This document shows positions 25,685 to 61,918 of a DNA stretch of 64,000 nucleotides, piece after piece; the stretch's first letter is position 1, and every line of letters starts with the position of its first letter. The DNA is from Pseudomonas sp. p1(2021b) (GTDB lineage: Bacteria; Pseudomonadota; Gammaproteobacteria; Pseudomonadales; Pseudomonadaceae), in assembly GCF_020151015.1 (NCBI RefSeq), contig NZ_CP083746.1, positions 5,114,501-5,178,500 on the forward strand, in the 5' to 3' direction. A program made the position numbers and the translations under genes. The notes beneath the pieces are model-generated. The model was not told where the DNA came from and searched no databases. It saw only the letters and a program-made list of their open reading frames with translations.

Positions 25685-26869
25685 TTAACGGTAAAGGTCT
25701 TCGCGGGTCCAAGGCAGGTCGTGATGCCCATCTGCGTAAGGCTTCACCGCGAGGATCTGGTGCAGGTTGATCCAGCCCTTGGAGAAGGCATAGGCACAGC
25801 CGGCCAGGTACAGGCGCCAGATGCGCAAGGTCTTCTCTGGTACCAGGGCGGCGGCCTTGTGCAACTGGTTCTCCAGGTTCTCGCTCCAGTGGTTGAGGGT
25901 CTTGGCGTAGTGCAGGCGCAGGCTTTCCACATCGACGATTTCAAGCCCTGCTTCGCAGATACGTGCACTGATCATCGACACATGCGGTAGCTCGCCATGG
26001 GGGAAGACATAGCGGTCGATGAACTCGCCCGCCCCCCGCCCTACCGGGCGCCCATCCACGTGCTTGGCCGTGATGCCATGGTTCATCACCAGGCCGCCTT
26101 CGCGCACGGCACCGAACAGCTTCTGGCAATACAGTTCGAGGTTGGCATGGCCGACGTGCTCGAACATACCGACGCTCACCACCTTGTCGAAGCGGCCATC
26201 CTGGGGCAGGTCCCGGTAGTCGAGGATCTGCAGGTCGACCTGATCGGCCAACCCTTCTTCCTTGACCCGTTGGCGGCCCAGTTTCAGCTGCTCCTTGCTC
26301 AGGGTGATGCCGAACACCTTGGCGCCGTATTCGCGCGCGGCGAACCGCGCCAGCCCACCCCAACCGCAGCCCACGTCGAGCAGGTAGTCACCGGCCTGCA
26401 GGCGCAGCTTGCGGCACAGGTGGTCGAACTTGTTCTGCTGGGCCTCGTCGAGGGTGTTGTCCGGTTCGCGGAAGTAGGCGCAGGAATAGGCCATGTCCTG
26501 GTCGAGCCAGAGCTGGTAGAACTCGTTGGACAAATCATAGTGGTAGGAAATGGCTTCAGCGTCCGTGTCCTTGTCATGCGCGGTACGCTCAGGGGGTGTT
26601 TCGTCTTCGTCCTCCAGCAAGGCTTCGCTGAGCTCGTCGCAGACCCGGATGACTTCCCCGATATCGCCTTCGAGCTCGAGCTTGCCTTCGACGAAGGCGG
26701 CACCCAGTTCATCCAGGCTCGGATGGGTCAGCTGGGAGATCAGCTGAGGCTCCTTGACCAGGATGGTGACCTGCGGGCTCGGCCCCAGGTCGAACTGGTT
26801 GCCGTCCCACAGCTTCAGACGCAAAGGCAAGTGCAAGCTCTGCAACGCAGGTGGAAGTTGCGCAAGCAT
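25685..26869 (-). CDS. cfa: Cyclopropane-fatty-acyl-phospholipid synthase
   Basis: A 394-residue SAM-dependent enzyme that methylenates cis double bonds in membrane phospholipids, typically in stationary phase or stress. The N-terminal lipid-binding part is followed by HYDLSNEFYQLWLD, the SAM motif LLDVGCGWGGLARFAA, GITLSKEQLKLG and the active-site stretch FEHVGHANLELYCQKLF. P. putida carries two such genes (cfaA and cfaB); by neighbourhood this resembles the less active chromosomal copy, but that is from memory. Divergent from lpd with a 209-base space. Confidence 0.93.
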   Translation of the reverse strand: MLAQLPPALQSLHLPLRLKLWDGNQFDLGPSPQVTILVKEPQLISQLTHPSLDELGAAFVEGKLELEGDIGEVIRVCDELSEALLEDEDETPPERTAHDKDTDAEAISYHYDLSNEFYQLWLDQDMAYSCAYFREPDNTLDEAQQNKFDHLCRKLRLQAGDYLLDVGCGWGGLARFAAREYGAKVFGITLSKEQLKLGRQRVKEEGLADQVDLQILDYRDLPQDGRFDKVVSVGMFEHVGHANLELYCQKLFGAVREGGLVMNHGITAKHVDGRPVGRGAGEFIDRYVFPHGELPHVSMISARICEAGLEIVDVESLRLHYAKTLNHWSENLENQLHKAAALVPEKTLRIWRLYLAGCAYAFSKGWINLHQILAVKPYADGHHDLPWTREDLYR

Positions 26870-30589: not shown

Positions 30590-30665
30590 ATCGCGGGACA
30601 AGCCCGCTCCTACAGGGACCTCGCCATCCGCGAGGCTTGCGTGATCCTGTAAGAGCGGGCCGCAC
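30590..30665. repeat. REP pair whose second arm is truncated at the island edge
   Basis: The first arm is intact (TCGCGGGACAAGCCCGCTCC from 30591). The second arm reads CTGTAAGAGCGGGC to 30660 and then departs from the REP sequence, where TTGTCCCGCGA would be expected. This is the last REP seen; none occurs in the following 33 kb. Confidence 0.75.
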
Positions 30666-30686
30666 ATGTTGCTTATTAATAAACTC

Positions 30687-30833
30687 TGTCACAAAACCTC
30701 TGGAAATTCGCGGCCTAGCGGGGAGGTTGATCCTGTGGAAGCGAAATTAAAGGTTGTCACAAAGCATCGCTTTTCAAAAAATCTCGGGGGTTTTCGTTTA
30801 ATAAAGGTTGTCACAACAATAACGGTTGTCACA
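30687..30833 (+). repeat. Four direct repeats with TGTCACA core: probable end of a Tn7-like element
   Basis: TGTCACA occurs in one orientation at 30687, 30755, 30809 and 30827; the last three share a longer core GGTTGTCACA, and most are followed by an A-rich run. The stretch is AT-rich and non-coding, and begins just after the REP breakpoint. Repeated same-orientation transposase-binding sites close to a 5'-TGT terminus are the layout of Tn7-type ends. Candidate terminal TGT trinucleotides lie at 30667 and 30687. The transposase genes are not in the window. Confidence 0.55.
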
Positions 30834-31165: not shown

Positions 31166-32407
31166 TCAGTGCGTCTGCTGTGCCATTTCAGTGTGCCTGG
31201 GCAGAGCAATCGAGATGAGTGCAGCGACCAATACGAAGACGCTGGAAACCCACAAGCAAGCCTCCAACCCATAGGCCTGAAACACCCAACCTGACAGCAG
31301 TGTGCCGACCAAACGACCGAGGGCGTTGGACATGTAGTAGAAGCCTACATCCAGGGAGACGCCATCTTCCTTGGCATAACTGACGATCAGGTAGCTGTGC
31401 AGCGATGAGTTCACGGCGAACAGCACACCGAACAGCATCAACCCACCGAGCAAGACTACCTTTGCCGACCAGCCTGCCGACAGGCCCACGGCAATGAGCG
31501 CAGGCAGTCCGGCCAGAGCGATTGCCCAGATGAAGGCTGCTCGGCCATCGGGTACATGACCACGCCTCTTGCCGGTGATATGGGGGGCAAACGACTGGAC
31601 GATGCCATAGCCGATTACCCAGACGGCCAAGAAACCGCCGACCAGCCAGAAGTCCCAGCCAAACGCAGAGCTCAGGTACACCGGTAGTGCCACGACGAAC
31701 CAGATATCCCGCGCACCGAACAAAACCAGCCGTGCGGCCGAGAGGATGTTGATGGCCCGGCTCTTGGACAGCATGTCGCGGAACTTCGGTTTGGCCTTGG
31801 CCTTGCCCAAGTCCTTTTTCAGCAGCATCAGACTACCGATCCAGATCAGGGCCAGCACCGCCGCCATGGCCAGCACCGCCTGGGTGAAACCGAGCAACGC
31901 GAGCAATGCTCCCCCGAGGAAAAAACCCACGCCTTTGAGAGCGTTCTTCGAGCCCGTCAGGATGGCCACCCATTTGTAGAGGATGCCTTGCTGGCTGTCC
32001 GGCACCAGGAGCTTGATGGAGCTCTTGGCGCTCATTTTGTTCAGGTCCTTGGCGATGCCGGAGAGCGCCTGGGCCGCCATCACCCACGGCACCGTCAGCG
32101 AGGCTGCTGGTACCGTGAGCATCAGCAGGGCGAAGACCTGCATGCCAAGGCCGATGTTCATGGTGCGGTTGAGCCCCAGGCGGGCGCCGAGGTAGCCGCC
32201 CACGAGGTTAGTGATCACGCCGAACACTTCGTAGAACAGGAACAGCGCCGCGATCTGCAGCGGCGTGTAGCCCAGCGAATGGAAGTGCAGTACCACCAGC
32301 ATGCGCAAAGCGCCGTCGGTAAGGGTGAAGGCCCAGTAATTGCCGGTAACCAGCAGGTACTGACGCACTTCCGCAGACAGGGCTGACAACGCCTTCATGA
32401 TCGCCAT
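31166..32407 (-). CDS. arsJ: Organoarsenical efflux MFS transporter ArsJ
   Basis: A 413-residue major facilitator with 11-12 transmembrane helices. Family blocks include QYLLVTGNYWAFTLTDGALR, EVFGVITNLVGGYLGARLGL and SGIAKDLNKMSAKSSIKLLV. ArsJ exports 1-arseno-3-phosphoglycerate, made from arsenate by the partner GAPDH, so the pair removes arsenate without reduction. It starts at the base after the gap stop (TAAATG); an in-frame Met three codons on is an alternative start. It is the last gene of the operon. Confidence 0.92.
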   Translation of the reverse strand: MAIMKALSALSAEVRQYLLVTGNYWAFTLTDGALRMLVVLHFHSLGYTPLQIAALFLFYEVFGVITNLVGGYLGARLGLNRTMNIGLGMQVFALLMLTVPAASLTVPWVMAAQALSGIAKDLNKMSAKSSIKLLVPDSQQGILYKWVAILTGSKNALKGVGFFLGGALLALLGFTQAVLAMAAVLALIWIGSLMLLKKDLGKAKAKPKFRDMLSKSRAINILSAARLVLFGARDIWFVVALPVYLSSAFGWDFWLVGGFLAVWVIGYGIVQSFAPHITGKRRGHVPDGRAAFIWAIALAGLPALIAVGLSAGWSAKVVLLGGLMLFGVLFAVNSSLHSYLIVSYAKEDGVSLDVGFYYMSNALGRLVGTLLSGWVFQAYGLEACLWVSSVFVLVAALISIALPRHTEMAQQTH

Positions 32408-33412
32408 TTACTCCGCTGCGCCGACCAGGCGTGCTAGTTCAACCGCACGGTTGGCGTAGCCCCACTCGTTGTCGTACCAGGCGTAGATCTTCACTTGGGT
32501 ACCGTTGACTACGAGGGTGGACAGCGCATCGATGATCGAGGACCGCGGATCGGTGCGGTAGTCGATGGACACCAAGGGGCGTTCTTCGTAGCCCAGGATG
32601 TCCTTCAGCGGTCCTTCGGTTGCGGCTTTCAGCAGCGCGTTGACCTCTTCAGCCGTTGTCTCACGTTCCACTTCGAACACGCAGTCGGTCAGCGAGGCGT
32701 TGGCCAGTGGTACACGTACGGCGTGACCATTCAGCTTGCCGCGTAGCTCGGGGAAGATCTCGGCGATTGCGGTGGCAGATCCCGTGGTGGTCGGGATCAG
32801 GCTCATGCCCGAGGCTCGGGCGCGACGCAGGTCCTTGTGCGGTGTATCCAGAATGCTCTGGGTATTGGTGAGGTCGTGAATGGTGGTGATCGAGCCGTGG
32901 CGTATGCCCAGGTTCTCGTGAATCACCTTGACCACCGGGGCCAGGCAGTTAGTGGTGCAGGAAGCGGCGGTGACGATACGATGCTGCGCCGGGTCGAATA
33001 GGTGCTGGTTGACGCCCATCACCACGTTCAGTGCGCCTTTCTCCTTCACTGGAGCGCAGACGACCACACGTTTGACGCCTTGATCCAGGTAGGCCTGGAG
33101 TACGGCTACCGACTTCATCTTGCCGCTGGCCTCGATGACCAAGTCACAGCCCGACCAGTCGGTGTCCGCGATGGTCTTGTTGGCGGTGACCTTGATGCGC
33201 TTGCCCTCGATCACTACCGCGTCGCCCTCTGCGCGGGCTTCACGGTGCCAGCGTCCGTGGATCGAATCGAAGTTGATCAGATGGGCATGGGTCTCGGCGT
33301 CACCGGCCGGGTCATTGATCTGCACAAACTCGAATTCCGGCCAGTCCCAGGAGGCGCGAAGCGCCAAGCGACCAATACGGCCAAACCCATTGATACCTAC
33401 TTTGATAGCCAT
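32408..33412 (-). CDS. ArsJ-associated glyceraldehyde-3-phosphate dehydrogenase
   Basis: A 334-residue GAPDH. It begins [20 protein letters not shown] (NAD loop) and has the catalytic [11 protein letters not shown] cysteine, [20 protein letters not shown] and [11 protein letters not shown]. In ars operons this paralogue uses arsenate in place of phosphate to make 1-arseno-3-phosphoglycerate for ArsJ. Position directly upstream of arsJ supports this over a glycolytic role. It follows the phosphatase gene by 32 bases. Confidence 0.93.
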
Positions 33413-33444
33413 GTTCTTTTTCTCGAATCGCGATTAGCGAAAGG

Positions 33445-33948
33445 TCAGAGGGTGTCGCTGAACTGGTTGATATACCCAACGTGCGCAGGGTTCTGGATCG
33501 CACGTGGACGCAGGGCCTGGACCTGGGAAACAGCTTCCTGCACAGGGATGCCGCACTCGATCATCAGGCGGGCGGCAAACAGGCCGGTGCGGCCAGAGCC
33601 GCCCTTGCAGTGAATGGCGATCGTCTTACCGGTCATCACCAGCTCTTTCAGGCGTTCCCGGTGAGCCTTCCAGGCGGCCGCAAACGGCTCACCGGGCGCT
33701 TCGTCATCCTCGACCGGCAGGTGGAACCATTCGAGGCCCAGCAGTTGGCACTCCTCGGGAAGCAGATCGATCTCGTTCTGCAGCAGTTCTTCACTCGGCA
33801 TCAGGGTTACCAGCGCGCTTGCGCCGGCATCGTGCAACGTTGCCAGAGCCTGAGATACCGATGTCTCCTTGGTACCTGGGCACGGAGTGAAGATCAGCTG
33901 GCCGACCAGTTCGGAATTAGCCAACACTGAATACGGGTGCAATTGCAT
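33445..33948 (-). CDS. CX5R protein phosphatase (CDKN3/dual-specificity type) in the ars operon
   Basis: A 167-residue cysteine phosphatase. The P-loop is IAIHCKGGSGRTGLFAARLM, a CX5R site at about residues 112-118, and the general acid is probably an Asp of PVEDDEAPGE. It resembles the cyclin-dependent-kinase-inhibitor-3-like phosphatases that occur in ars operons. Its role is not established; dephosphorylating a sugar- or arseno-phosphate intermediate, or a regulatory protein, are both possible. I chose ATG 33948, ten bases after GAGG; a GTG two codons earlier is alternative. It lies between arsH and gap with short spacings, so it is co-transcribed. Confidence 0.85.
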   Translation of the reverse strand: MQLHPYSVLANSELVGQLIFTPCPGTKETSVSQALATLHDAGASALVTLMPSEELLQNEIDLLPEECQLLGLEWFHLPVEDDEAPGEPFAAAWKAHRERLKELVMTGKTIAIHCKGGSGRTGLFAARLMIECGIPVQEAVSQVQALRPRAIQNPAHVGYINQFSDTL

Positions 33949-33960
33949 GCTCACAAAGCC

Positions 33961-34677
33961 TCAAATGGATCGTTGATTGACACGCTTGGATAGTTCTTCA
34001 GCCGACTCTTTACGTTCGGAGTAGCGATCGACCAGGTAGTCGGAGCGATCACGAAGCAGCAGGGTGAACTTCACCAGCTCCTCCATTACGTCGACAACAC
34101 GGTCGTAGTACGAAGAGGGTTTCATGCGACCCGCCTCGTCGAATTCCAGATAGGCCTTCGGCACGGACGACTGGTTAGGGATGGTGAACATGCGCATCCA
34201 GCGGCCGAGGACGCGCAGCTGGTTGACCACGTTGAAAGACTGCGAGCCGCCGCAGACCTGCATCACCGCGAGGGTTTTGCCTTGAGTGGGGCGCACGGCG
34301 CCCATGCTCAGTGGAATCCAGTCGATCTGCGACTTGAACACGCCAGTCATCGCGCCGTGGCGCTCTGGCGAGCACCAGACCATGCCTTCCGACCACAGCA
34401 CCAGGTCGCGCAGCTCCTTGACTATGGGGTGGTCATCGGGCACGTCATCCGCCAGTGGCAGCCCGGTCGGATTGAAGATCCGCGTCTCGGCACCGAAGTG
34501 CTCCAGCAGGCGTGCCGCTTCTTCCGTCAGCAGGCGGCTGAACGAGCGTTCGCGGGTCGATCCGTACAGCAGCAGGATGCGAGGGTTATGGGTGGACTTT
34601 TGCTCGACTGCCAGTTTGTCTGCTGTCGGCAGGTCGACCAGATCGTTGTCGATATTCGGGATATGGTGTTCGGTCAT
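33961..34677 (-). CDS. arsH: Organoarsenical oxidase / NADPH-dependent FMN reductase ArsH
   Basis: A 238-residue flavoprotein that oxidises trivalent methyl- and aryl-arsenicals to less toxic pentavalent forms. The flavodoxin-like FMN site reads [15 protein letters not shown], followed by [20 protein letters not shown] and the family block [20 protein letters not shown]. Length and motifs are typical of ArsH. It starts three bases after the acr3 stop and is translationally linked with it. Confidence 0.95.
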
Positions 34678-34680
34678 GAT

Positions 34681-35742
34681 TTACTCCTGAGTCAAGGCGC
34701 CAGATGGCTGATCGAACCAGCGGCGCTTGAGCCACAAGGCCACGCCCACCAGGGAGATCAGTACCGGCACTTCCACCAAGGGCCCGATGACGGTGGCAAA
34801 CGCGACCGGCGAGGCAAGGCCGAAGGTGGCGATGGCCACGGCAATGGCCAGTTCGAAATTGTTGCTCGCTGCAGTGAACGCCAGCGCCGTGGTACGTGGG
34901 TAGTCAGCTTCCAACAGCTTGCCCATCCAGAAGCTGATGAAGAACATCACCACGAAGTAGATGGTCAGCGGGATAGCGATGCGCAGCACATCCAGCGGCA
35001 GTTGCAGCACCATGTCGCCTTTCAGGCTGAACATGGCGACGATGGTCAGCAGCAACGCCACAAGGGTCAGCGGGCTGATCTTCGGGATGAATCGCTCCTG
35101 GTACCAGGTCTCGCCCTTGCTGCTGATCAGGATCTTGCGGGTCAGGAAACCAGCCAGGAACGGGATGCCCAGGTAGATCAGCACCGATTGGGCGATATCG
35201 AGGAAGCTGGTCTCAATGACGCTACCTTCAAGGCCAAACAGCGGCGGCAACAGCCCCAGGAAGATCCAGGCGTACACGCTAAAGAACAGGATCTGGAAAA
35301 TGCTGTTGAAGGCGACCAGACCCGCCACGTACTGGTTGTTGCCACCGGCGATCTGGTTCCACACCAGCACCATGGCGATGCAGCGTGCCAAGCCGATGAG
35401 GATCAGGCCGGTCATGTACTCAGGCTTGTCGGAAAGGAAGACAACGGCCAGCCCGAACATCAGGACCGGGCCGATCACCCAGTTCTGGATCAGCGACAGG
35501 GCAAGGATGCGCTTGTCCTTGAATACCTGTGGCAACTCCTCGTATTTCACCTTCGCCAGAGGTGGGTACATCATTACGATGAGGCCAATGGCGATGGGGA
35601 TGTTTGTCGAGCCTACCGACAGGCTATTCAGCCACGCAGGCAATCCCTGGAACAGGCTGCCCAGACCAATGCCCAGGCCCATGGCCAGAAAGATCCACAC
35701 CGTCAGGTAGCGGTCTAGAAAGGAAAGTCGGCTTTTGCTCAT
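34681..35742 (-). CDS. acr3: Arsenite efflux transporter Acr3
   Basis: A 353-residue inner-membrane arsenite exporter of the Acr3 (BART) family with ten helices, not the ArsB family. It begins [20 protein letters not shown], has the essential cysteine block [20 protein letters not shown] and the pump motif [20 protein letters not shown]. It removes arsenite produced by the ArsC proteins. It starts 18 bases after arsC. Confidence 0.95.
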
Positions 35743-35760
35743 GGTGGATCTCCCTAAACG

Positions 35761-36231
35761 TCAGAGCGTTCCGATACGGGCCAGCTCGGCCTTAAGCTGG
35801 GCGGCATCCAATTGTTCGAAAGGCAGCGCGAGGAATGCATTGAGGCGTCGTTTGATCTGCTCAAGCGTGACGTCGAACGCTGCGTCCAGTTCGGCGGTGT
35901 TGCCCTGCTGGTCAGAAGGGTCAGAAAGCCCCCAGTGGGCTTTCACTGCTGGTCCGAAGAACACGGGGCAGGCTTCGCCAGCGGCCTTGTCGCAGACGGT
36001 GATGACAAAGTCCGGTGCCAGCTCGGCATGCGCGTCACTTGACTTGCTGCTGAGGCCCTCGGTGGAGATACCAGCACGCTGCAGCGCGGTGATGGACAGC
36101 GGGTGCACATCACCCTTTGGCTGGCTGCCGGCGCTGTAGGCCTTCATGCCGGCCGGGGCCAGATGATTGAAAACAGCCTCGGAGAGGATGCTGCGGCAGC
36201 TATTGGCGGTGCAGAGGAACAGAACTTTCAT
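35761..36231 (-). CDS. arsC: Arsenate reductase ArsC (LMW-phosphatase fold)
   Basis: A 156-residue arsenate reductase. The CX5R loop CTANSCR is at residues 7-13, and further cysteines occur at 80 and 88 (TVCDKAAGEACP), the spacing of the Cys10-Cys82-Cys89 relay of thioredoxin-coupled ArsC. It reduces arsenate to arsenite for Acr3. ATG 36231 (MKVLFLCTAN) matches the family; the longer frame upstream has no homology. It follows arsR by 19 bases. Confidence 0.94.
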   Translation of the reverse strand: MKVLFLCTANSCRSILSEAVFNHLAPAGMKAYSAGSQPKGDVHPLSITALQRAGISTEGLSSKSSDAHAELAPDFVITVCDKAAGEACPVFFGPAVKAHWGLSDPSDQQGNTAELDAAFDVTLEQIKRRLNAFLALPFEQLDAAQLKAELARIGTL

Positions 36232-36250
36232 CGGTTTTTCTCGGCAATGA

Positions 36251-36607
36251 TCAGCAGCAGGAGGCGACGCGTTGAGGGCGGTCACCCATTGTGTCCAGTC
36301 GTTTAGTGCTAGCACTCAGCCATTCGCGGTTGGCCTCCAGCGTCGTCGCCAGGACCTCACGTACCCAGCCGGGAAGCGATGGATGCAGGCGGTAATAAAC
36401 CCACTGGCCCTGACGCCGGTCTTCCAGCAGGTCACACGTGCGCAGTTGCGCCAGGTGGCGGGAAACCTTGGGCTGGCTTTCTTCCAGCGCGCAGGTCAGT
36501 TCACAGACGCAGAGTTCTTCCTCGCGAGAGATCAGCAGCATCATCCGAATGCGGTTCTCGTCGGCGAGGCATTTGAAAACCTTGGTAGGTGTCAGCGAGT
36601 CAGTCAT
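36251..36607 (-). CDS. arsR: Arsenite-responsive repressor ArsR
   Basis: A 118-residue ArsR/SmtB winged-helix repressor. The DNA-binding helix region contains the metalloid site ELCVCELTC (Cys33, Cys35, Cys39), close to the ELCVCDLC motif of the classical ArsR, and EESQPKVSRHLAQLRTCDLL. A terminal CysCys pair is present. It lies eight bases after the second arsC and leads arsC-acr3-arsH. It probably represses the whole operon, perhaps at the repeats near 37055-37080. Confidence 0.94.
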   Translation of the reverse strand: MTDSLTPTKVFKCLADENRIRMMLLISREEELCVCELTCALEESQPKVSRHLAQLRTCDLLEDRRQGQWVYYRLHPSLPGWVREVLATTLEANREWLSASTKRLDTMGDRPQRVASCC

Positions 36608-36615
36608 AGCAATTC

Positions 36616-37029
36616 TCAGTGTTTAGTTTTCACGAGGACGAACATTTTGATGCGCTCATGAATCTCATGAAGCGTGCGTCGGAAGGCATCGTGTTGGTCA
36701 CTGGTAACAGGGTCTTCGAAGTTCCACGCCAGAACCTCGCCGAGGGCAGGCAAAGTAAGGCACTCATGGGCTGCCTTGTCGCAGAGCGTAATCAAGTAGT
36801 CGAACCGTTCCCCTGCAAACTCGTCGATGGACTTGCTGCGTAGAGCCTTGGTATCGATATCGAGATATTCGAGGGCGTCATAGGTGCGCGGATCGACTTG
36901 GCCAGGCTGGGTACCTGCGCTAAAAACTTCGAAATGCACAGGGTCTGTGTGCCGGAGCAAAGCTTCGGCGAGCTGGGAGCGAGCGGCGTTTGCGGTGCAA
37001 ACAAACAGAACGCGGGTCTTGCCAGTCAT
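36616..37029 (-). CDS. LMW protein tyrosine phosphatase / arsenate reductase, first gene of the ars operon
   Basis: A 137-residue LMW-phosphatase-fold protein with P-loop VCTANAAR, then FSAGTQPGQVDP and FDYLITLCDKAAHECLTLPA. It is a second arsenate reductase-like gene, distinct from ArsC at 35761 (different loop and length), closer to the group that relies on glutathione/glutaredoxin or has only phosphatase activity. ATG 37029 was chosen by homology; the frame continues upstream without it. It is divergent from arsR2 and begins the eight-gene transcript. Confidence 0.85.
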   Translation of the reverse strand: MTGKTRVLFVCTANAARSQLAEALLRHTDPVHFEVFSAGTQPGQVDPRTYDALEYLDIDTKALRSKSIDEFAGERFDYLITLCDKAAHECLTLPALGEVLAWNFEDPVTSDQHDAFRRTLHEIHERIKMFVLVKTKH

Positions 37030-37054
37030 CACTTGGTACCCTGAGTGTATATGG

Positions 37055-37080
37055 TTTTTCGAATATACGCTTTTTCGAAT
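37055..37080. promoter_or_regulatory. Direct repeats upstream of the ars operon (possible ArsR operator)
   Basis: TTTTTCGAAT occurs at 37055 and 37071 in the same orientation, 26-51 bases before the first gene of the minus-strand operon. TTCGAA-containing elements are common in ArsR operators, so this is a candidate site for the classical ArsR. Confidence 0.4.
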
Positions 37081-37113
37081 GTGTCGCAACCCCTCGATGA
37101 TGGGTGGCTTTAC

Positions 37114-37133
37114 ATGTGCGCGTTCATGCACAT
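37114..37133. promoter_or_regulatory. Operator candidate for the second ArsR (site 1)
   Basis: ATGTGC-N8-GCACAT, eleven bases before the arsR2 ATG. The N8 spacer GCGTTCAT resembles the reversed spacer of site 2 at 37506, so both look like the same operator in opposite orientation. Confidence 0.6.
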
Positions 37134-37144
37134 ATATTGGCTGC

Positions 37145-37483
37145 ATGACGACCAACCAAAATCTCCGTGCTCAAGCCATCGAAGCCGCCATCGAGTCGCT
37201 AGACGAGACCTTCTTCAAAGCGCTTTGCGAGCCTTCCAGAGTCGCGGTTTTCAAGCGCGTACTTTTGCTCGGCCGGGCGGATGTCGGCGAAATCGCCAAA
37301 GAGCTGCCACAGGAGCGCTCGGTGATCTCCAGGCACCTGCAGGTATTGCATGACGCCAAGATCGTGAAGGCCACCAAGGTGGGTCGGCAGGTGTTCTATG
37401 AAGTAAATGGTGGGTCGATCGTCGAGCGACTGGAGGGCCTGCTCCAGCGAACCAAAGGTCTAGTATCGATCTGCTGTCCGTAG
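37145..37483 (+). CDS. Second ArsR-family regulator, different cysteine layout
   Basis: A 112-residue ArsR/SmtB repressor with the helix pair LPQERSVISRHLQVLHDAKI. It lacks the CVC motif of the DNA-binding helix and has cysteines at 28, 110 and 111 (C-terminal SICCP), so metalloid binding would use a different site. It is divergent from the long ars operon and just upstream of the arsO remnant, with matching palindromes before both itself and arsO. The inducer is probably arsenite or an organoarsenical; not provable here. Confidence 0.87.
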   Translation: MTTNQNLRAQAIEAAIESLDETFFKALCEPSRVAVFKRVLLLGRADVGEIAKELPQERSVISRHLQVLHDAKIVKATKVGRQVFYEVNGGSIVERLEGLLQRTKGLVSICCP

Positions 37484-37505
37484 TCCGGCCTTTTTTTGCC
37501 TTTAG

Positions 37506-37525
37506 ATATGCATGAGTGCGCATAT
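37506..37525. promoter_or_regulatory. Operator candidate for the second ArsR (site 2)
   Basis: ATATGC-N8-GCATAT ends one base before the arsO ATG at 37526, so a bound repressor would cover the ribosome-binding region and promoter of arsO. Confidence 0.55.
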
Positions 37526-38068
37526 ATGAATGAGTTGGATCGCGTTCTGGATGTGGTCGTTATCGGTGGTGGGCAAGCAGGTTTGGCGACTGGCTGGCAT
37601 TTACAGCAGCACGGCTTGGATTACCTCATCTTGGATGAGCAGACATCCCCGGGCGGTAACTGGCGTAACTACTACGAAAGCTTGCAGTTGTTCTCACCAT
37701 CGGAGTACTCAGCGCTGCCGGGGCGAGCGTTTCTTGGCGATCCCAAGGACTACCCGGTGCGAAATGAAGTGGTGCAGTACCTGGAGGCATACGCCGCCGA
37801 GTTTCAGCTCCCTTTTCAGGGCGGTACCCGAGTGGTGGCGGTCGTACAGAAGGGCAAGGCATTTGAGGTTCGCACCGCCAACGGAGCGAATTTCACTACG
37901 CGTGCTGTGGTAGTGGCATCAGGTGGCTTCAGCCGTCCTTTCATGCCTGACATTCCTGGGCTAGAGAGCTTTTCAGGACACTGTCTGCAGATAAAAAAGC
38001 AGCTCCGAAAAGCTGCTTTTCTGCCCTACTCCCCCTTTTTATGCTTGTGGGGTTTCAGGTCTGGGTGA
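37526..38068 (+). pseudogene. Truncated arsO-like flavin monooxygenase
   Basis: The first ~150 codons encode an NAD(P)/FAD oxidoreductase of the ArsO group: FAD loop DVVVIGGGQAGLATGWHLQQ, then SPGGNWRNYYESLQLFSPSE and RAVVVASGGFSRPFMPDIPG. Family members run to about 350 residues. Homology stops near 37985, where the frame enters a terminator hairpin and unrelated DNA and ends at 38068. The NADPH-binding half is missing, so the product is probably inactive. Its promoter and operator remain. Confidence 0.8.
37993..38020 (-). terminator. Terminator of the 42-residue gene
   Basis: On the minus strand AGCAGCT-TTTCGG-AGCTGCT is followed by a run of six T. It starts six bases after the stop codon of the small gene at 38026 and also lies at the breakpoint of the arsO remnant. 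Confidence 0.85.
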
Positions 38069-38277: not shown

Positions 38278-39981
38278 TTAGAGGCCTGAGTAGGTGCTTC
38301 CGGTCAAAGTCTTGCAAGGGGCAGTAAAATCAAGAGCTGAGCGATACGAGGATGTCTGGACGTTCATCATCCCGAGTACGGTGTGGAACAGGTTGTCGTG
38401 GCTCAGTGGCGAGCTCGTCTGTGCTTTCAAGCAGCCCACATTGAGGCGTTCGCTTTTCGCGAGAGAATCAGACATCCAGAGCACCAATGGCACCTTGGTT
38501 TGCTCATCTGGGGCCATCGCATAGGGCAGCCCATGCAGGTAAAGACCACCCTCTCCCAGTGACTCTCCGTGATCTGAGACGTACATGAGCGCAGTGTCGA
38601 ATTTGGTATTCGCAGCCAGGATGTCGATCAGCCCGGCCGTCACGTAGTCGGTGTAGAGGATCGAATTGTCGTAGGCATTGATCACCTCCTGCTGCTTACA
38701 TTTGTCGAGCTCATTGGTCTCGCAGACCGGCCCGAATTTCTTGAACTGCGGGGGGTAGCGCTTGTAGTAGGCCGGGCCGTGACTACCTTTGTAGTGGAGC
38801 ACCAGGACTGCATCGCCTTCCTGACGCTTGATGAAGTCCTCCATCTCCGAAAGCAGCACCCCGTCCTTGCACTCGTCGCTGGTACACAGTTGAGCATCTG
38901 CGTGTTGGGTAGCCTTGTGGTTTGGCACCCGATCACAGACCCCTTTGCAGCCCGAATTGTTATCAGTCCACATGACACTGATGCCTGCCCGCTGAAGCAC
39001 ATCGAGCAGCCCTTCTCGGCTCTTGGCCAAGCCGTCCTTGTACTCATCCCTCCCGACGTCCAAGAACATGCATGGCAGGGAAACCGCAGTGGCAGTGCCG
39101 CACGAGCTCACATTCGAGAAGCTGATGACATTGCGCTTTTCCAGCTCTGGATTCGTATCGCGGGAGTAGCCATTAAGGGAGAAGTTGGCGGAACGTGCGG
39201 TTTCCCCCACTGCCAGTACCAGCAGCTTGGGTTTGCGAGCCGCTCCCTGCCTGGTCACCACGGCGTCGGTACCAATGGAGGTCAGCGCTTTCGGTGTGGC
39301 CAGCTTGCGTTTCAGGTAACCATGACCGGCAGCAAACAAATTGGTGGGAACCAGAATGAGCCGGATCTCCCGATTGTTGCGTAGGAGGGAGGCATAAGAC
39401 TGGTACTGGCTCAGCACGATACCAGCAAGGGTTACCAGTGCGAGCGACAGGACGATGAGTCTGCTACCCAACGCTTTGGTCCAGGGCTTGCGTCGCAGGG
39501 GCACCAGACAGATCAGGTAGACGGGCAATACCCCTACCATTGCCACCCAGAGGCCAAGTTTCCAGTTCAGTAGCTCGGACACCTCACCGACGTCGGTCTC
39601 CACGACGTTGGTGAACATCGTGTAATCAATGACGATGCCGTAAGCACTCATGAAGTAGCTGGCGAACGACGCGCTGATCAGCACCAGGCACAGCAGAGGT
39701 TTTGCGAGTCTTGACCATGACAGCAAGCTAAGTACGGTGAACACCCAAACGAACACTACGACTGGCAGGCTGGCGGCGAGCAACCAGTTAACTTCATCAG
39801 TGTTGAATGCCAGGCGCCAGAGCACACGCCAAAGCTCAGCGTTCACGAACAACAACAACCAAAAAGTTACTAGCGCGATGAGTAAATTGGTGCTGATGCC
39901 TTCCTGTCTAACTTTGCGAATAGCATGGATCCATTTACTTAACAGGATGTGAACAATGGATTTAGAAGGTGTCATTATCAA
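38278..39981 (-). CDS. eptA: Lipid A phosphoethanolamine transferase (EptA-like)
   Basis: A 567-residue inner-membrane enzyme that adds phosphoethanolamine to lipid A, lowering the surface charge. Five N-terminal transmembrane helices precede a periplasmic alkaline-phosphatase-like domain with VLAVGETARSANFSLNGYSR (zinc Glu), the catalytic Thr in SSCGTATAVSLPCMFLD, and the metal block YVSDHGESLGEGGLYLHGLP. Cysteines in CKGVCDRVPNH and CETNELDKCK fit the family disulfides. Its location within a metal-resistance island suggests induction by metal stress, as in ColRS-type control of P. putida. It could contribute to polymyxin resistance; that is family knowledge. Confidence 0.92.
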   Translation of the reverse strand: MIMTPSKSIVHILLSKWIHAIRKVRQEGISTNLLIALVTFWLLLFVNAELWRVLWRLAFNTDEVNWLLAASLPVVVFVWVFTVLSLLSWSRLAKPLLCLVLISASFASYFMSAYGIVIDYTMFTNVVETDVGEVSELLNWKLGLWVAMVGVLPVYLICLVPLRRKPWTKALGSRLIVLSLALVTLAGIVLSQYQSYASLLRNNREIRLILVPTNLFAAGHGYLKRKLATPKALTSIGTDAVVTRQGAARKPKLLVLAVGETARSANFSLNGYSRDTNPELEKRNVISFSNVSSCGTATAVSLPCMFLDVGRDEYKDGLAKSREGLLDVLQRAGISVMWTDNNSGCKGVCDRVPNHKATQHADAQLCTSDECKDGVLLSEMEDFIKRQEGDAVLVLHYKGSHGPAYYKRYPPQFKKFGPVCETNELDKCKQQEVINAYDNSILYTDYVTAGLIDILAANTKFDTALMYVSDHGESLGEGGLYLHGLPYAMAPDEQTKVPLVLWMSDSLAKSERLNVGCLKAQTSSPLSHDNLFHTVLGMMNVQTSSYRSALDFTAPCKTLTGSTYSGL

Positions 39982-40867: not shown

Positions 40868-41773
40868 GTGGGATCGAATCATGATCATGGCAGTGCCGCG
40901 CTTCGTGAGGGGCATCAGAAGAAACTAGTCATGGCATTGGTCCTGACCGGTAGCTTCATGATCGCTGAAGTGATCGGCGCATGGATTACCGGCAGCCTGG
41001 CGTTGCTGTCGGATGCGTCTCACATGTTCACCGACACCGCCGCTTTGGCAATTTCGTTGATTGCGCTTCAGATCGCAAAGCGGCCGGCGGATCAGAAAAG
41101 AACCTTTGGCTATGCGCGGTTGGAGATCCTAGCCTCCACGTTCAACGCCGTGCTGCTCTTCCTGGTGGCGATGTACATCTTGTACGAGGCCTACCAGCGC
41201 TTCTTCATGCCGGCGGAGATCGCCACCGGGGCGATGATGTGGATCGCAATTGTCGGCCTGATCATCAACCTGATTTCAATGCGACTGCTGGCATCTGCCA
41301 GCAACGAGAGCCTCAACGTCAAAGGCGCCTACCTCGAAGTCTGGAGCGACATGCTCGGATCGTTGGGCGTGATCATCGCAGCCCTCATTATCCGCTTTAC
41401 CGGCTGGACCTGGGTCGACACGGTTGTCGCCGTAGCGATCGGCCTTTGGGTATTGCCGCGGACTTGGCAATTGCTTCGAGAGAGCCTGGGGATTCTTATG
41501 GAAGGTGTACCCCGGGGGCTCAACGTGGCGGCAATCGAGGCCACGATCCTCAAGGTCGACGGCGTCACGGATGTCCATGACTTGCACGTTTGGGCCGTCA
41601 GCAGCGGAAGCAACGTGATGACGTCGCACGTGGTCGTCCGAGACGCAGCAGATGGAGATGCTGTGCTAGCGGCCGTCGTGGATGCAGTCAGCGACGCGTT
41701 CGAAATCCATCACTGCACCATTCAGATCGAGCGCGCAGCTTTCCACGAGAACGTTCCGTCGCCGTCGCATTGA
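40868..41773 (+). CDS. czcD: Cation diffusion facilitator CzcD (Zn/Co/Cd efflux)
   Basis: A 301-residue CDF transporter with six helices, which exchanges cytoplasmic Zn2+, Co2+ or Cd2+ for protons. It starts with a GTG after AAGGAG and a short His-containing N-terminus. The metal site lies in GSLALLSDASHMFTDTAALA (HxxxD of helix 2) and LEVWSDMLGSLGVIIAALII (helix 5); the C-terminal domain has VTDVHDLHVWAVSSG and FEIHHCTIQIE, typical of ZntA/CzcD. It follows the zinc-ribbon gene and precedes the mer transposon insertion by 92 bases. Confidence 0.93.
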   Translation: MGSNHDHGSAALREGHQKKLVMALVLTGSFMIAEVIGAWITGSLALLSDASHMFTDTAALAISLIALQIAKRPADQKRTFGYARLEILASTFNAVLLFLVAMYILYEAYQRFFMPAEIATGAMMWIAIVGLIINLISMRLLASASNESLNVKGAYLEVWSDMLGSLGVIIAALIIRFTGWTWVDTVVAVAIGLWVLPRTWQLLRESLGILMEGVPRGLNVAAIEATILKVDGVTDVHDLHVWAVSSGSNVMTSHVVVRDAADGDAVLAAVVDAVSDAFEIHHCTIQIERAAFHENVPSPSH

Positions 41774-41865: not shown

Positions 41866-41903
41866 GGGGGGCTCGCAGAATTCGGAAAAAATCGTACGCT
41901 AAG
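41866..41903. repeat. Terminal inverted repeat of the mer transposon (tnpA side)
   Basis: 38 bases, GGGGGGCTCG at the outside and CGTACGCTAAG inside; the last five bases overlap the tnpA stop region. Matches its partner at 50183-50220 at 35 of 38 positions. Confidence 0.95.
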
Positions 41904-44865
41904 GTTTTCCGGGCATCCGTAGGGGCCGAAACTTCCCGTCTTCCAGTCTGCGGCTCTGCCGCCAGACGTAATCGCCGGTGAGGTTGATGTGCTCCCAGCC
42001 CAGCGGCGACAGGAATTGCAGCAGCTCGCCGTCCACCGGCTTGCCGGCCTCGACCAACCCCTGGGTGGCGCGCTCCAGGTACACCGTGTTCCACAGCACG
42101 ATAGCCGCCGTCACCAGGTTGAGGCCGCTGGCCCGGTAGCGCTGCTGCTCGAAGCTCCGATCCCTGATTTCCCCAAGGCGGTTGAAGAACACCGCCCTGG
42201 CCAGCGAGTTGCGCGCCTCACCTTTGTTCAGGCCGGCATGCACGCGGCGGCGCAGCTCAACACTTTGCAGCCAGTCTAGGATGAACAGCGTGCGTTCGAT
42301 CCGGCCCAGCTCGCGCAGGGCCACGGCCAGGCCGTTCTGGCGCGGATAGCTGCCGAGCTTGCGCAGCATCAGCGAGGCAGTGACGGTGCCCTGTTTGATC
42401 GAGCTGGCCAGGCGCAGGATGTCGTCCCAATGGGCGCGGACGTGCTTGATGTTCAGGGTGCCGCCGATCAGCGGCCGCAGCGTCGGGTAGGTCTGCACGC
42501 CCTGCGGCACGTACAGCTTGGTTTCGCCGAGGTCGCGGATGCGCGGCGCGAAACGGAAGCCCAGCAGGTGCATCAGGGCGAAGACGTGATCGGTGAAGCC
42601 GGCCGTGTCGGTGTAGTGCTCCTCGATCCGCAGGTCGGACTCGTGGTACAGCAGGCCGTCGAGCACATAGGTGGAATCGCGCACGCCGACATTCACCACG
42701 CGGGTGCTGAACGGCGCGTACTGGTCGGAGATATGGGTGTAGAACAGCCGTCCCGGCTCACTGCCGTACTTCGGGTTGACGTGTCCGGTGCTCTCGCCCC
42801 GGCCGCCAGCCCGGAAACGCTGGCCATCGGAGGATGAGGTGGTGCCGTCGCCCCAGTGGGCGGCGAAGGCATGCTGGTACTGGTGGTTGACCAGCTCGGC
42901 CAGGGCCGCCGAATAGGTCTCGTCGCGGATGTGCCAGGCTTGCAGCCAGGACAGCTTGGCGTAGGTCAGACCGGGGCTCGACTCGGCCATCTTGGTCAGC
43001 CCGAGGTTGATCGCATCACCGAGGATCGCGGACAGCAGCAACGTCCGGTCTTTGGCCTCGGCCCCGTCCTTCAGGTGGGTGAAGTGGCGGCTGAAGCCCG
43101 TCCAGTCGTCCACGTCCATCAGCAGTTCGGTGATCTTGATGCGCGGCAGTAACTGACTGGTCTGGTCGATCAGCGCCTGCGCCCGATCCGGCACCGCCGC
43201 ATCCAGCGGGGTGATCTTCAACCCGGACTCGGTGAGGATGGCATCGGGCAGCTCGTTGTCCTTGGCCAGGCGGGCGACAGTGGCCAACTGCTCGTCCAGC
43301 AGCTGCAAGCGCTCTTCCAGATACTGGTCGCTGTTCGGGTTGATCGCCAGCGGCAGGGCCTGTTCCCGCTTGAGCGCGGCGAACTTCTCGGCCGGCAACA
43401 GGTAGTCGTCGAAGTCGCGGAACTGCCGCGAGCCCTTGACCCAGATGTCGCCGGAGCGCAGGGCGTTCTTCAGCTCGGACAGGGCGCAGATTTCGTAGAA
43501 GCGCCGGTCGAGGCCTTCCGGGGTGATCACCAGTGGCTTCCAGCGCGGCTTGATGAAGGCGGTGGGAGCATCGGCCGGCACCTTGCGCAGGTTGTCGGCG
43601 TTCATCTCGCGCAGCGTCTGCACGGCTGCCAGCACGCCCTGCGCGGCCGGGGCGGCGCGCAGCTCCAATACCTCCAGCAGAGCCGGCGTGTAGCGGCGCA
43701 GGGTGGCGAAGTTCTCGCCGACCAGGTGCAGGTGGTCGAAGCCCTCCGGCCGGGCCAGCAGCTCGGCTTCGCTGACGCTCTCGGTGAACTCGTCCCAGGG
43801 GATCACCGCCTCGATGGCGGCATAGGGGTCGCTGCCGGCTTCCTTGGCCTCCAGCAGCGCCTGGCCGATCTTGGAGTACAGGCGCACCTTGTCGTTGATC
43901 GCCTTGCCCTGCTTCTGGAACTGCTGCTGATGCTTGTGCTTCGCGCCGCTGAACAGCTTGACTAGGATGCGGTCGTGCAGATCCACCAGCTCATCAATCA
44001 CGGTTGCAGTGCTCTCCAGCACCACGGCGGCCAGGGTCGCATAGCGCCGCTGCGGCTCGAACTTGCCGAGGTCTTTGGGCGTCATCTGCCCACCCTCGCG
44101 GGCCAGCTTGAGCAGGCGGTTCTGGTGGATGTGCCGGCCCAGGACTTCGGGCAAGTCCACCAGCTGAAATGTCTTCAGCCGCTCGATGTGCTCAAGCATG
44201 TGCCGAGAGTTGGGTTTCAGCGGTGCCTGGCGCAGCCAGGTCAACCAGGTGATGCTGCTGCCGGCCTTGAGCTTCAACAGCTCGTCCAGCTTGGCCCGAT
44301 GCGAGTCCGTGAGCGGTTCAACCAGGGCGCGGTAGACCCGCCGATTGGCCCGTGCAATGGCCTCCGAGCAAGCCCGGTCGATCACGCTCAACGCCGGCAG
44401 GATGCGTCGCTTCTGCCGCAGGCTCTCCAGCGCCTGGCCGGCCAGCAGCAAGCCCTTGTCGGTCTGCTGGGCCAGTTCGGTCAGCTCGCGCACCAGGGCG
44501 CGGAAGTCGGACAGGCCGAACGGGGCCAGTTGAAGGTAGGTGCGCAGTTCCTGGGCGTGCTCGCGACGGGTCACATCGCGCTCGCCGTACTTCGTCCAAC
44601 TCGCCGGATCGGTCTGGACTTGCTTGGCCACCCACAGGATGACCGGTTCGGGCAGCTCGCTGTCAGTGCCCAACGCATAGCCGGGGTAGCGCAGCAGGCA
44701 GAGTTGCACGGCGAAGCCGAGGCGGTTGGCGTCGCCGCGCCGCTGACGGATCAGCGACAGGTCGGAGTCGTTGAAGGTGTAGTAGCGGATCAGGTCATCC
44801 TGGCTTTCTGGCAACGCGAGCAGGGTGCCCCGCTCCGTGGCCGAGAGGATCAAGCGACGCGGCAT
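41899..44865 (-). CDS. tnpA: Tn3-family transposase TnpA
   Basis: A 988-residue DDE transposase of the Tn21 subfamily, exactly the family length. It begins [20 protein letters not shown]. The catalytic domain lies in the C-terminal third, with [20 protein letters not shown], a conserved [15 protein letters not shown] block and the C-terminal [21 protein letters not shown] part. It acts on the 38-base ends. The frame is intact, so the element may be mobile. It is adjacent to tnpR (3 bases apart). Confidence 0.97.
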
Positions 44866-44868
44866 GTG

Positions 44869-45429
44869 TCAGTCGTCCGTGCGGAGGTACTGGTAGAGGG
44901 TTTCCCGGCTGATGTTGAACTCGCGGGCAAGCTGCGCCTTGGGCTCGCCGGCCGTCGCTCGCTGCCGCAGGGTAGCAGCCTGCTCATCGGACAGGGCTTT
45001 CTTGCGGCCCCGGTACGCGCCACGCTGCTTGGCCAAGGTGATGCCCTCACGCTGCCGCTCGCGGATCAGGGCGCGCTCGAACTCAGCGAAGGCCCCCATC
45101 ACCGACAGCATCAGGTTGGCCATCGGCGAGTCCTCGCCAGTGAACACCAGGCCCTCCTTCAGGAACTCGATGCGCACGCCGCGTTGAGTCAGCTTCTGTA
45201 CCAAGCGACGCAGGTCATCGAGGTTGCGGGCCAGCCGGTCCATGCTGTGCACCACCACTGTATCGCCTTCGCGGACGAAGCTCAGCAGCGCTTCGAGCTG
45301 GGGGCGCTGGGTGTCCTTGCCCGATGCCTTGTCGGTGAACACCTTGCTCACCTGTGTCTGTTCCAGCTGGCGTTCCGGGTTCTGGTCGAAGCTGCTGACC
45401 CGGACGTAGCCGATGCGGTGCCCCTGCAC
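44869..45429 (-). CDS. tnpR: Serine resolvase TnpR
   Basis: A 186-residue small serine recombinase that resolves the cointegrate at res. The N-terminal catalytic domain has GYVRVSSFDQNPERQ (Ser nucleophile), VHSMDRLARNLDDLRRLV and FAEFERALIRERQREG; the C-terminal HTH is KAQLAREFNISRETLYQYLR. It is co-oriented with tnpA and preceded by the res region. Confidence 0.97.
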   Translation of the reverse strand: MQGHRIGYVRVSSFDQNPERQLEQTQVSKVFTDKASGKDTQRPQLEALLSFVREGDTVVVHSMDRLARNLDDLRRLVQKLTQRGVRIEFLKEGLVFTGEDSPMANLMLSVMGAFAEFERALIRERQREGITLAKQRGAYRGRKKALSDEQAATLRQRATAGEPKAQLAREFNISRETLYQYLRTDD

Positions 45430-45603
45430 GATGTCTCCTTGGTTGAAGGCGGCTTAAGTGCTCCTTCTGTTCCGTTGTGCCTCAAACCCCGTTTCTGTCA
45501 GGCTGAAATCTATGACCTTCGCAGGCATGTGTCAAAAATGCGAAAGATGACTCTATTCTGACTAAGCGGCGCGGCCCTGCCTGACATCCAGTTAGGGTAT
45601 GCC
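45430..45603. other. res resolution site region
   Basis: The non-coding space upstream of tnpR contains partly symmetric elements in the usual Tn21-type res order: a crossover-like segment near 45575-45603 with CTGACATCCAGTTAGGGTATG and two further inverted motifs (around TGTCAAAAATGCG and GTTTCTGTCAGGCTG). Identified by position and family layout. Confidence 0.6.
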
Positions 45604-46593
45604 TCAATCTGACGGTAGCGAGTCGCAGGCGTTCGGATCGGCATCGGTTTCGTTCCCTGTCTTGGCACGCGCTTCGAAGCGTTGATAACACTCCAACCCG
45701 CAGAAGTGCTCGACGTATTCCGCGCCTTCCGGGGTGAAGGCGGCATCGAGCGGGATTTCCTTGCAGCACACGCAGCAACTGGTGGTGGTCGAGTCACTTG
45801 CATTCATGGTGGCACCCCTCCATTGACTGACGAAGACGGCGAATGCCGCCGCCGGCATTGGCTTCGCGAACAGGAAGCCTTGTCCTGTGTCGCAGTCCGC
45901 TTGTCGCAATAGATCAAGACTCGCCGATGTTTCCACGCCTTCAGCCACCACATCCATGCCCAGCCCGTGCGCAAGCTGAATCACGGTGTGCACGATGGTT
46001 TGGTCGCGGCGGTCGTTGGCGAGCCCGGCGACAAACGATTGGTCGATCTTGAGCGTGCTGATTGGGCAGCACTTCAGATGTTGCAGACAGGAATACCCCG
46101 TCCCGAAGTCATCGGCGGCGAAGCGCACACCGATCTGCCGCAAGGCGTCCAGGGCGGGGAAGATCGCCGGATCACCAAACGCGACCGATTCGGTCAGCTC
46201 GATTTCGAGATACTCGGCGGGCAACTCGGCATCAGCCAGCACGCCCTTTACCCACCCGTCGAAGTCCGGTCCCACTTGGCTCGCCGAAGCATTGACGGCC
46301 AGCCGGAACGGTCGCCATGCCAGCATTCGCCAGTCACGCATCTGGCGGCAGGCTTCGCCCAGCACCCAAGCGCCGATTTCAGGCATCAGGCCGGACGATT
46401 CGACCACGGGCAGGAACTGGCCCGGTGGCAATAGTCCAAGCGTCGGATGACGCCAGCGCAACAGGGCTTCCGCGCCGACAATCCCACCACTGCGCAGATC
46501 GACGACGGGCTGGTAGTGCAGTTCAAGCTGCCCGCGCTCGACCGCTTGGGCCAGTTCCGGCGTCGTCCATCCATCCGGCCGGAAAGCGCTCAT
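45604..46593 (-). CDS. EAL-domain protein with C-terminal DUF3330 (mer urf2)
   Basis: A 329-residue protein. Residues about 10-255 are an EAL c-di-GMP phosphodiesterase domain: [20 protein letters not shown], then EALLRW (the EAL motif), [15 protein letters not shown] and KIDQSF. After a linker, residues about 265-329 form DUF3330 with CCVCCKE and [11 protein letters not shown] cysteines. It is the known urf2 of Tn501-type mer elements. Its start overlaps the merE stop (ATGA). Its role is unclear; it may be an active phosphodiesterase since [11 protein letters not shown] and KIDQSF are retained. Confidence 0.9.
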
Positions 46594-46826
46594 TCTCTTT
46601 CCCTGAATGCCCGCAACGCCCGCGACAGGGACAGAAGGAACAGGCCGGTCAAACCGAGCGCCGCGATGACCCAATGCTCGCCGAGGAAAGCACCGGCGGT
46701 TGTGCCGGCCAGCACGACAGCGAGGATGGGCAGGTGGCAGGGGCAAGTCAGCACAGCCAGTCCGCCCCACAGGTAGCCGGTGATCGGTTTGTGCGTCTCG
46801 GACGGCAAGCGCTCGGGGTTGTTCAT
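46590..46826 (-). CDS. merE: Mercury transport accessory protein MerE
   Basis: A 78-residue inner-membrane protein with two helices and the cysteine pair in [20 protein letters not shown]. MerE helps import Hg(II) and methylmercury. Its start overlaps the merD stop by four bases and its stop overlaps the urf2 start, so the three are translationally coupled. Confidence 0.93.
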
Positions 46827-47188
46827 GGCAGACTCTCCGCGTGCTGTGCCGGCTCGGTCGGCAGGGTGGCCAACTGCACTTCCAGATCGGCCAACGCTTC
46901 GCGCCGACGCTCGACGAACTGACGCAGCAGGGCAAGCTGCGCGGCCGCTTCGTCGCCGTCCGCCGCATCCAGCGCCCGGCACAGCCGCGCCAGCGCGTCG
47001 AGGCCGATGCCCGCCTCGAAGGCCGCCCGCACGAAGCACAGCCGTTGCAAGGCGGCGTCATCGAACAAGCCGTAGCCGCCTGGTGTGCACGCCACCGGGC
47101 GCAGCAATCCGCGCAGCAGGTAGTCGCGCACGATATGCACGCTCACCCCGGCATCAAGAGCCAGCCGGGACACCGTGTAGGCGTTCAT
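46823..47188 (-). CDS. merD: Mercury resistance co-regulator MerD
   Basis: A 121-residue MerR-like HTH protein ([20 protein letters not shown], then [18 protein letters not shown]) lacking the metal-binding cysteines of MerR. MerD binds the mer operator and turns the operon off after mercury is removed. It begins 17 bases after merA. Confidence 0.95.
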
Positions 47189-47205
47189 TGAACACCTCCT
47201 TTTTC

Positions 47206-48903
<1,698 letters not shown>

Positions 48904-48962
48904 TTATCGTTTGTGGCGCCAGACAATGACGTCCGTTGTGCTGCGGTGCCGTTTTCAGTGAC

Positions 48963-49238
48963 TCACTGCTTGACGCTGGACGGATAGCCCGCGTCTGCGG
49001 TTGCCTTGGTCAGCTTCTGCACGCTGGTCTTGGCATCGTCGAAGGTGACGACCGCTTGGCGTGTCTCGAAAGTCACGTCAACTTTGCTGACGCCTTCGAC
49101 CTTGGAAATCGCCTTCTTGACAGTGATCGGGCAGGCGGAGCAGGTCATGCCCGGTACGGACAGCGTGACGGTCTGGGTGGCGGCCCAGACGGGGGCAACA
49201 ACGGCGGCGAGGGCGAGGGAGGCAAACAGTTTCTTCAT
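48963..49238 (-). CDS. merP: Periplasmic mercury-binding protein MerP
   Basis: A 91-residue protein with a signal peptide MKKLFASLALAAVVAPVWA and one HMA domain with PGMTCSACPITVKK. It captures Hg(II) in the periplasm and hands it to MerT. It lies 12 bases after merT and 71 bases before merA. No merC is present, so this is the merRTPADE arrangement. Confidence 0.97.
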   Translation of the reverse strand: MKKLFASLALAAVVAPVWAATQTVTLSVPGMTCSACPITVKKAISKVEGVSKVDVTFETRQAVVTFDDAKTSVQKLTKATADAGYPSSVKQ

Positions 49239-49250
49239 GGTGAACTCCGA

Positions 49251-49601: not shown

Positions 49602-49636
49602 GCGCTTGTCCTTTCGAATTGAAATTGGATAGCGTA

Positions 49637-49667: not shown

Positions 49668-49672
49668 GCGAT

Positions 49673-50140: not shown

Positions 50141-50182
50141 TTAGAAAGCCTAGTCAAAGAGCTGTCACGAGAACACCGTTAG

Positions 50183-58732: not shown

Positions 58733-61900
<3,168 letters not shown>

Positions 61901-61918
61901 TCATCCTGTCAGTTCGCA

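Follow-up and report, generated by a model that had tools for sequence, protein, structure and literature searches.

A complete Tn7-like transposon of 61.3 kb almost certainly sits at the chromosomal attTn7 site of Pseudomonas sp. p1(2021b), 25 nt past the glmS stop codon. It starts within the window (the whole 64,000-nucleotide stretch analyzed, C1:5114501-5178500 of the 5.57-Mb genome) and extends 28 kb past the window edge. There, positions are given as window-equivalents (C1 position minus 5114500). The element runs from window position 30667 to window-equivalent 91992 (C1:5145167-5206492; 61,326 bp) and shows tnsABC and TniQ/TnsD genes in order, TGT...ACA ends with inward-facing repeats, a 5-bp duplication and an oriented insertion at glmS (Table 1). 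The preliminary description, based on the window, had expected tnsABCD-like genes, an inverted set of TGTCACA repeats and glmS beyond 64000; all were found there, the inverted set with three repeats and glmS directly beyond the far end of the element.

Table 1 Features of the Tn7-like element and its flanks; positions above 64000 are window-equivalents.
Feature	Position	Strand	Remark
Left duplication GCACA	30662-30666		5-bp target-site duplication; the same 5 bp follow the far end
Tn7-like element, in-window part	30667-64000		continues to 91992
Left end	30667-30833	+	terminus TGTTGCTTATTAATAAACTC, then TGTCACA at 30687, 30755, 30809 and 30827 (spacing 68, 54, 18)
Arsenic cluster	31166-37155	-
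MFS transporter			arsenic cluster; annotated arsJ in plasmid relatives of the stretch
ArsJ-associated GAPDH	32408-33412	-	arsenic cluster
ArsH	33961-34677	-	arsenic cluster
ACR3	34681-35742	-	arsenic cluster
Low-molecular-weight phosphatase family	35761-36315	-	arsenic cluster
ArsR	36251-36607	-	arsenic cluster
Arsenate-reductase-like ORF	36616-37155	-	score under its cut-off
ArsO-like ORF	37496-38068	+	N-terminal part only of flavin monooxygenase model (2-149 of 346), under cut-off
EptA-type phosphoethanolamine transferase	38278-39981	-	under the cut-off of all MCR models listed
CDF-family metal transporter	40868-41773	+
Nested mercury transposon (8,355 bp)	41866-50220		mer genes, EAL/DUF3330 ORF, resolvase-type ORF, Tn3-family transposase
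Two-component pair	51698-53787	+	histidine kinase 52369-53787 scanned; regulator ORF 51698-52372 named by position only
IS66-family transposase	53958-55133	-
RND efflux genes	58733-63961	-	AcrB/AcrD/AcrF-family pump, membrane fusion protein, outer membrane efflux protein
Second RND pump gene, heavy-metal sensor kinase, copA, copB	within 69606-82055
Xre/ParS-type protein	84201-84731	-
tniQ2	84845-85768	+	short TniQ, 307 aa, convergent to tnsD
tnsD	85740-87218	-	TniQ and TnsD domains
tnsC	87243-88691	-	AAA_22/TniB
tnsB	88688-90856	-	PF09299 slightly under cut-off; phmmer to Tn7 TnsB 7pik, E 4.2e-84
tnsA	90849-91748	-	PF08722
Right end	91926-91992	-	three TGTCACA repeats 20 bp apart
Right duplication GCACA	91993-91997
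glmS	92018-93853	-

Both ends of the element have the form TGTT-(16 nt)-TGTCACA, with the left terminus TGTTGCTTATTAATAAACTC and the right terminus TGTTTTTGAATAATAAAGGT, as aligned 20 bp outside the first repeat of each side. The four same-orientation TGTCACA repeats reported earlier were recovered at their positions, all on the forward strand and with no other copy in the window, and their reading as a Tn7-like end is supported. The terminus of this end is TGTTGC at 30667, 20 bp outside the first of them. The count in the 64 kb (4) is less than the chance mean of 7.48; the clustering of all four within 147 bp on one strand is non-random, as 0/500 mononucleotide shuffles of a 500-bp region reached four. 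Genome-wide, GGTTGTCACA occurs eight times, three times at the left end (+), three times inverted (-) at C1:5206426-5206475 and twice elsewhere, compared with three occurrences of the same word read backwards as a control. The repeats are putative TnsB-binding sites. The description of the repeat stretch as AT-rich is right only by comparison with the flank (50% GC over 500 bp vs 57% in the element and 62% in the left flank). The duplication GCACA flanks the element on both sides, 25 nt separate the right terminus from the final base of the glmS stop codon, and the tnsA end points toward glmS, as in the Tn7 layout.

On the left side, the preliminary description had placed a cut REP pair at 30660 and had seen no REP beyond it. 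Scanning for the REP core GCCCGCTCCTAC, with up to 1 mismatch allowed, gave 9 matches over the 30.7 kb of left flank and none within the 61-kb element, in agreement with the second point. As to the first, the truncation is real: alignments with the genome's other REP pairs end at or before window position 30660, and the truncation thus stops 6 bp short of the element boundary. The DNA across the element, however, is the glmS end and carries no REP, and the truncation was therefore not caused by the insertion, which begins at 30667 behind the duplication at 30662-30666. Of the cfa-lpd neighbourhood proposed in the preliminary description, the cfa part has a counterpart in a cyclopropane-synthase-type (CMAS, cfa-like) gene at 25685-26869, about 4 kb from the insertion point.

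An empty site of the same species was searched for with 400-nt joined flanks, which gave no full-length match in 149 same-genus genomes (own included). One junction-spanning match (G085, query 106-400, 77%) was discarded as an empty site, as it turned out to consist of separate REP and glmS pieces. The hydrolase gene of the left flank was absent from the 24 glmS loci inspected, reaching about 1.5 kb from glmS. That this neighbour does not adjoin glmS in those loci, together with the mobile elements nested inside (the mercury transposon and the IS66 transposase), would fit a different origin of the island, either as a genomic island or ICE moved by a site-specific recombinase or as an IS- or Tn3-driven patchwork, with the tns genes as mere cargo. 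Such an origin is most improbable, given that Tn7-type ends with the same 5-bp duplication lie at both outer boundaries and that the same ends bound other copies with different duplications and flanks. It is refuted for the outer boundaries and valid for parts of the interior.

With the ends, duplication, site and gene set of the Tn7-like element read directly from the DNA, homology to Tn7 suggests the biochemical steps of its movement. TnsA and TnsB would cut and join at the TGT ends through binding to TGTCACA, TnsC would serve as a bridge, and TnsD would recognize the glmS end and direct a single oriented insertion. The TniQ model PF06527 matches both TnsD and a second, short protein, TniQ2, showing two TniQ-domain genes in one element. 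NCBIfam yielded no family at E 0.001 for TnsB, TnsC or TnsD, and the TnsE model PF18623 had no match in the genome, but also none in any of 14 controls. General profile models, rather than a cas-specific library, gave no cas match among the subset of element ORFs scanned. An exact 18-mer scan at 40-95-nt spacing returned 25 words, of which the five listed fall in the copA ORF; the CRISPR reading of these listed words was rejected, as they belong to a Met/Asp/His-rich coding repeat. This 48-bp tandem repeat (window-equivalent 79802-79966; L017 16303-16467) mimics a CRISPR in such a simple scan.

The metal cargo includes arsenic (ars) and mercury (mer) genes, as named in the preliminary description, and copper (cop) genes as well; the annotation covers the scanned ORFs, a subset of all. 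An OprD porin is also among the cargo past the window edge. The mercury transposon has 38-bp inverted repeats (35/38 identical) and its own 5-bp duplication AAGCA. By its length and layout (8,355 bp, 38-bp inverted repeats), we take it to be Tn501. It is 100.0% identical to a stretch of NZ_MW300275.1, a copy on a P. aeruginosa plasmid.

To place the element among its relatives, TnsB was compared with named genomes, plasmids and viral contigs. The scan of named genomes gave 15 related loci, all in Pseudomonas. Among 398 genomes of the genus, own included, 21 have a close TnsB (E 1e-200 or better), with an internal stop in one of the 21 matches (G051). The plasmid searches gave four records with a TnsB above 75% identity, namely pKF715A, a P. 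veronii plasmid, pNY5709-IMP and pCF39S; tblastn with TnsB gave no relative in viral contigs. Upstream of tnsA, glmS is found in 12/15 related loci. As for the other three, L029 is cut by a contig start, while the genomes of L028 and L035 have glmS on another contig. Genes of RND, P-type ATPase and EptA type flank the L035 copy; the EptA-type gene near this copy (L101 5046-6746) is similar to the one at 38278-39981. L028 lies on a 485-kb contig of unassigned kind without glmS, next to the TniQ and TnsD genes (Pfam) of another Tn7-like element. Both copies are either stacks at glmS split by the assembly or insertions elsewhere, and the L028 copy looks like an insertion elsewhere than glmS. The TnsB dN/dS of L028 vs L035 is 0.55, an odd value.

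Left ends were located in 12 genomic copies and in three of the four plasmid copies, and most of them show the spacings of 68 and 54 again. For pKF715A no left end was found in the plasmid stretch searched; a single repeat at 294675 was rejected as a candidate. A thirteenth genomic stretch (L054), in which no repeat was present, was left out, leaving 17 copies for the comparison of ends (own, 12 other genomic and 4 plasmid). An identical 5-bp duplication was detected by script in 14/17 copies and in 15/17 after re-reading the right terminus of pCF39S from the next repeat; in the L044/L026 copy the duplication is mismatched. The duplications differ in sequence among most copies, as expected of independent insertions. 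In the 12 glmS-linked copies, own (25) included, the distance from the glmS stop to the right terminus is 22-27 nt.

Further repeat sets, like the ends of different Tn7-like elements, were seen by eye next to the ends of several copies (L047, L051 and L053 on the left; L028, L032 and L035 on the right), which suggests stacks of unrelated Tn7-like elements. In the element neighbouring L028, two genes with a TniQ domain are likewise present (L100 244-1350, 4951-6594), coding for 368 and 547 aa. For the plasmid copy of P. veronii (L038), tnsC and tnsD each gave two partial matches, and their annotation is that of split or short ORFs; this copy is therefore broken or wrongly sequenced.

The four plasmid insertions lie at sites unlike glmS. 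Because the distance to the glmS stop varies, sequences were compared with the stop codon as anchor instead of in a fixed register, and in this comparison the plasmid flanks scored -36 to -66 bits vs 80-101 bits for held-out glmS. The highest of them, the L038 flank with -36 bits, ranks within the top 2.5% of its locus in likeness to glmS, far under real glmS. When the flanks of pCF39S were joined to an empty site, at least 80% of the query was covered as one place in 107/108 matching plasmid records. The one plasmid searched for it, pKF715A, encodes no glmS. Plasmid flanks unlike glmS and the lack of glmS on pKF715A therefore point to, rather than prove, a second target route of the family, possibly onto large plasmids.

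TniQ2 is a fixed component of this Tn7-like family. In 18/18 loci, the short TniQ convergent to tnsD is present as an ORF of at least 268 aa (own, 13 related genomic and 4 plasmid; two of the 15 related loci are cut by contig ends before tniQ2). TniQ2 was found at E 1e-20 or better in 23 of 398 same-genus genomes, including all 21 genomes with a close TnsB; an internal stop interrupts two of the 23 matches (G335, G120). In G238, G253 and G417, TnsB and TniQ2 are found on separate contigs, and in G326 about 17 kb apart. Across the five computable pairs, TniQ2 has a dN/dS of 0.19-0.28, the saturated pair L030 vs L031 being excluded; these values resemble those of TnsD and in most pairs exceed those of TnsA-C. 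Beyond the zinc-finger region there is little likeness between TniQ2 and TnsD of the same element (BLASTP 2e-7, 35 residues), and a sequence search of solved structures gave a weak TniQ match only (E 0.032). The AlphaFold model is of low confidence (pLDDT 62), and its Foldseek search gave no match at E 0.001 or better; the best match was the TniQ of a type I-B CAST (8fcu, E 0.015, probability 0.99, TM 0.35), followed by TnsD. Within 5 kb beyond tniQ2, no ORF of at least 70 aa is common to all 18 loci. The Xre/ParS-type protein was rejected as a partner of TniQ2, as it occurs there in just 11/18 loci, one of them with a displaced copy. This protein (own gene: L018 702-1232) is 93% identical in L030 vs L036, while TniQ2 is only 44% identical, a contrast that suggests cargo exchange between family members.

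One possible explanation, which we put forward tentatively, is that TniQ2 serves as a further selector of targets and directs the family to large or conjugative plasmids, a role taken elsewhere by TnsE or CRISPR effectors. Its presence in all 21 genomes with a close TnsB and the dN/dS range given above would fit such a role, as would the 4/4 plasmid copies that carry tniQ2 at sites without glmS-like sequence and the TniQ of a type I-B CAST as best Foldseek match. In addition, a chromosomal-site route and a plasmid route are described for Tn7-like elements in a review (PMC11406308), and Faure et al. 2023 (PMC10293859) propose that a short TniQ works with another, extra selector. However, no candidate partner is common to the 18 loci, the low-confidence model has no fold match at the threshold used, and TniQ2 is also present in the copies inserted at glmS, so that insertions at glmS and on plasmids cannot be told apart by whether TniQ2 is there. 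Moreover, there are only four plasmid insertions, the L038 flank ranks high for glmS-likeness within its locus, and L028, without glmS on its contig of unassigned kind, indicates that insertions away from glmS may extend beyond plasmids.

It is quite possible, instead, that the plasmid insertions are rare off-targets of tnsABC plus tnsD and that TniQ2 regulates transposition or assists TnsD. The position of tniQ2 next to tnsD in the loci compared is in line with this, and L028 fits an off-target insertion. Cross-regulation is possible, since the CAST I-D TniQ strongly lowers TnsD-directed homing according to Faure et al. 2023 (PMC10293859). The plasmid sites are unlike glmS, however, and the four insertions hit four different megaplasmids. 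Altogether, we consider a plasmid selector and a regulator about equally likely roles of TniQ2.

The full two-route picture, of a Tn7-like family without CRISPR or TnsE in which TnsD leads to glmS and a small, fast-diverging, partnerless TniQ2 leads to megaplasmids, alone or with a host or plasmid protein, seems rather unlikely as a whole; its probability was lowered because L028 lies off glmS on a contig of unassigned kind. Among the papers listed in searches of the open-licence PMC literature, we recognized none on plasmid targeting by a CRISPR-free short TniQ. If TniQ2 does select plasmids, it would add another way in which Tn7-like elements choose plasmid targets and provide a small, testable system for what partnerless short TniQs do, a question left open by Faure et al. 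The Tn7-like element accounts for the arrival of arsenic, mercury and copper resistance as one block in the chromosome, at a site that is both safe and conserved. The occurrence of the family on megaplasmids as well makes it a plausible route of metal-resistance cargo between species.

Tn7 inserts about 25 nt past the glmS stop codon with a 5-bp duplication and its tnsA end toward glmS, and its sites are spread in one end and tightly packed in the other. The element described here resembles Tn7 of E. coli in its TnsA, TnsB, TnsC and TnsD homologues, insertion distance, 5-bp duplication, orientation and spread vs packed sites; unlike Tn7, it has a second, short TniQ and the repeat core TGTCACA, and TnsE went unmatched in a search that was silent on its 14 controls. 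A large copper-resistance Tn7-like transposon was reportedly found in P. syringae pv. syringae by Aprile et al. in 2021; going by its title, it too is a large Tn7-like element for metal resistance in this genus. In P. putida, heavy-metal genes together with Tn7-like tns genes are already on record: according to PMC3056050, strain W619 has tnsABCD beside ars, chr and cop genes and strain KT2440 has tnsABCD with a heavy-metal cluster. Here the likeness is one of gene content as described; the passages on these strains name neither the ends nor a second TniQ, and the text is without glmS. More generally, Benler et al. 2021 (PMC8649781) describe heavy-metal genes as abundant Tn7-like cargo. Faure et al. 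2023 (PMC10293859) counted 998 dual TniQ-TnsD loci and noted short TniQs without a recognisable partner. Unlike CAST I-B and I-D, our element showed no CRISPR array in the simple 18-mer scan and no identified partner of its short TniQ; with the dual TniQ-TnsD loci, CAST I-B and I-D included, it shares the combination of one long TnsD and one short TniQ.
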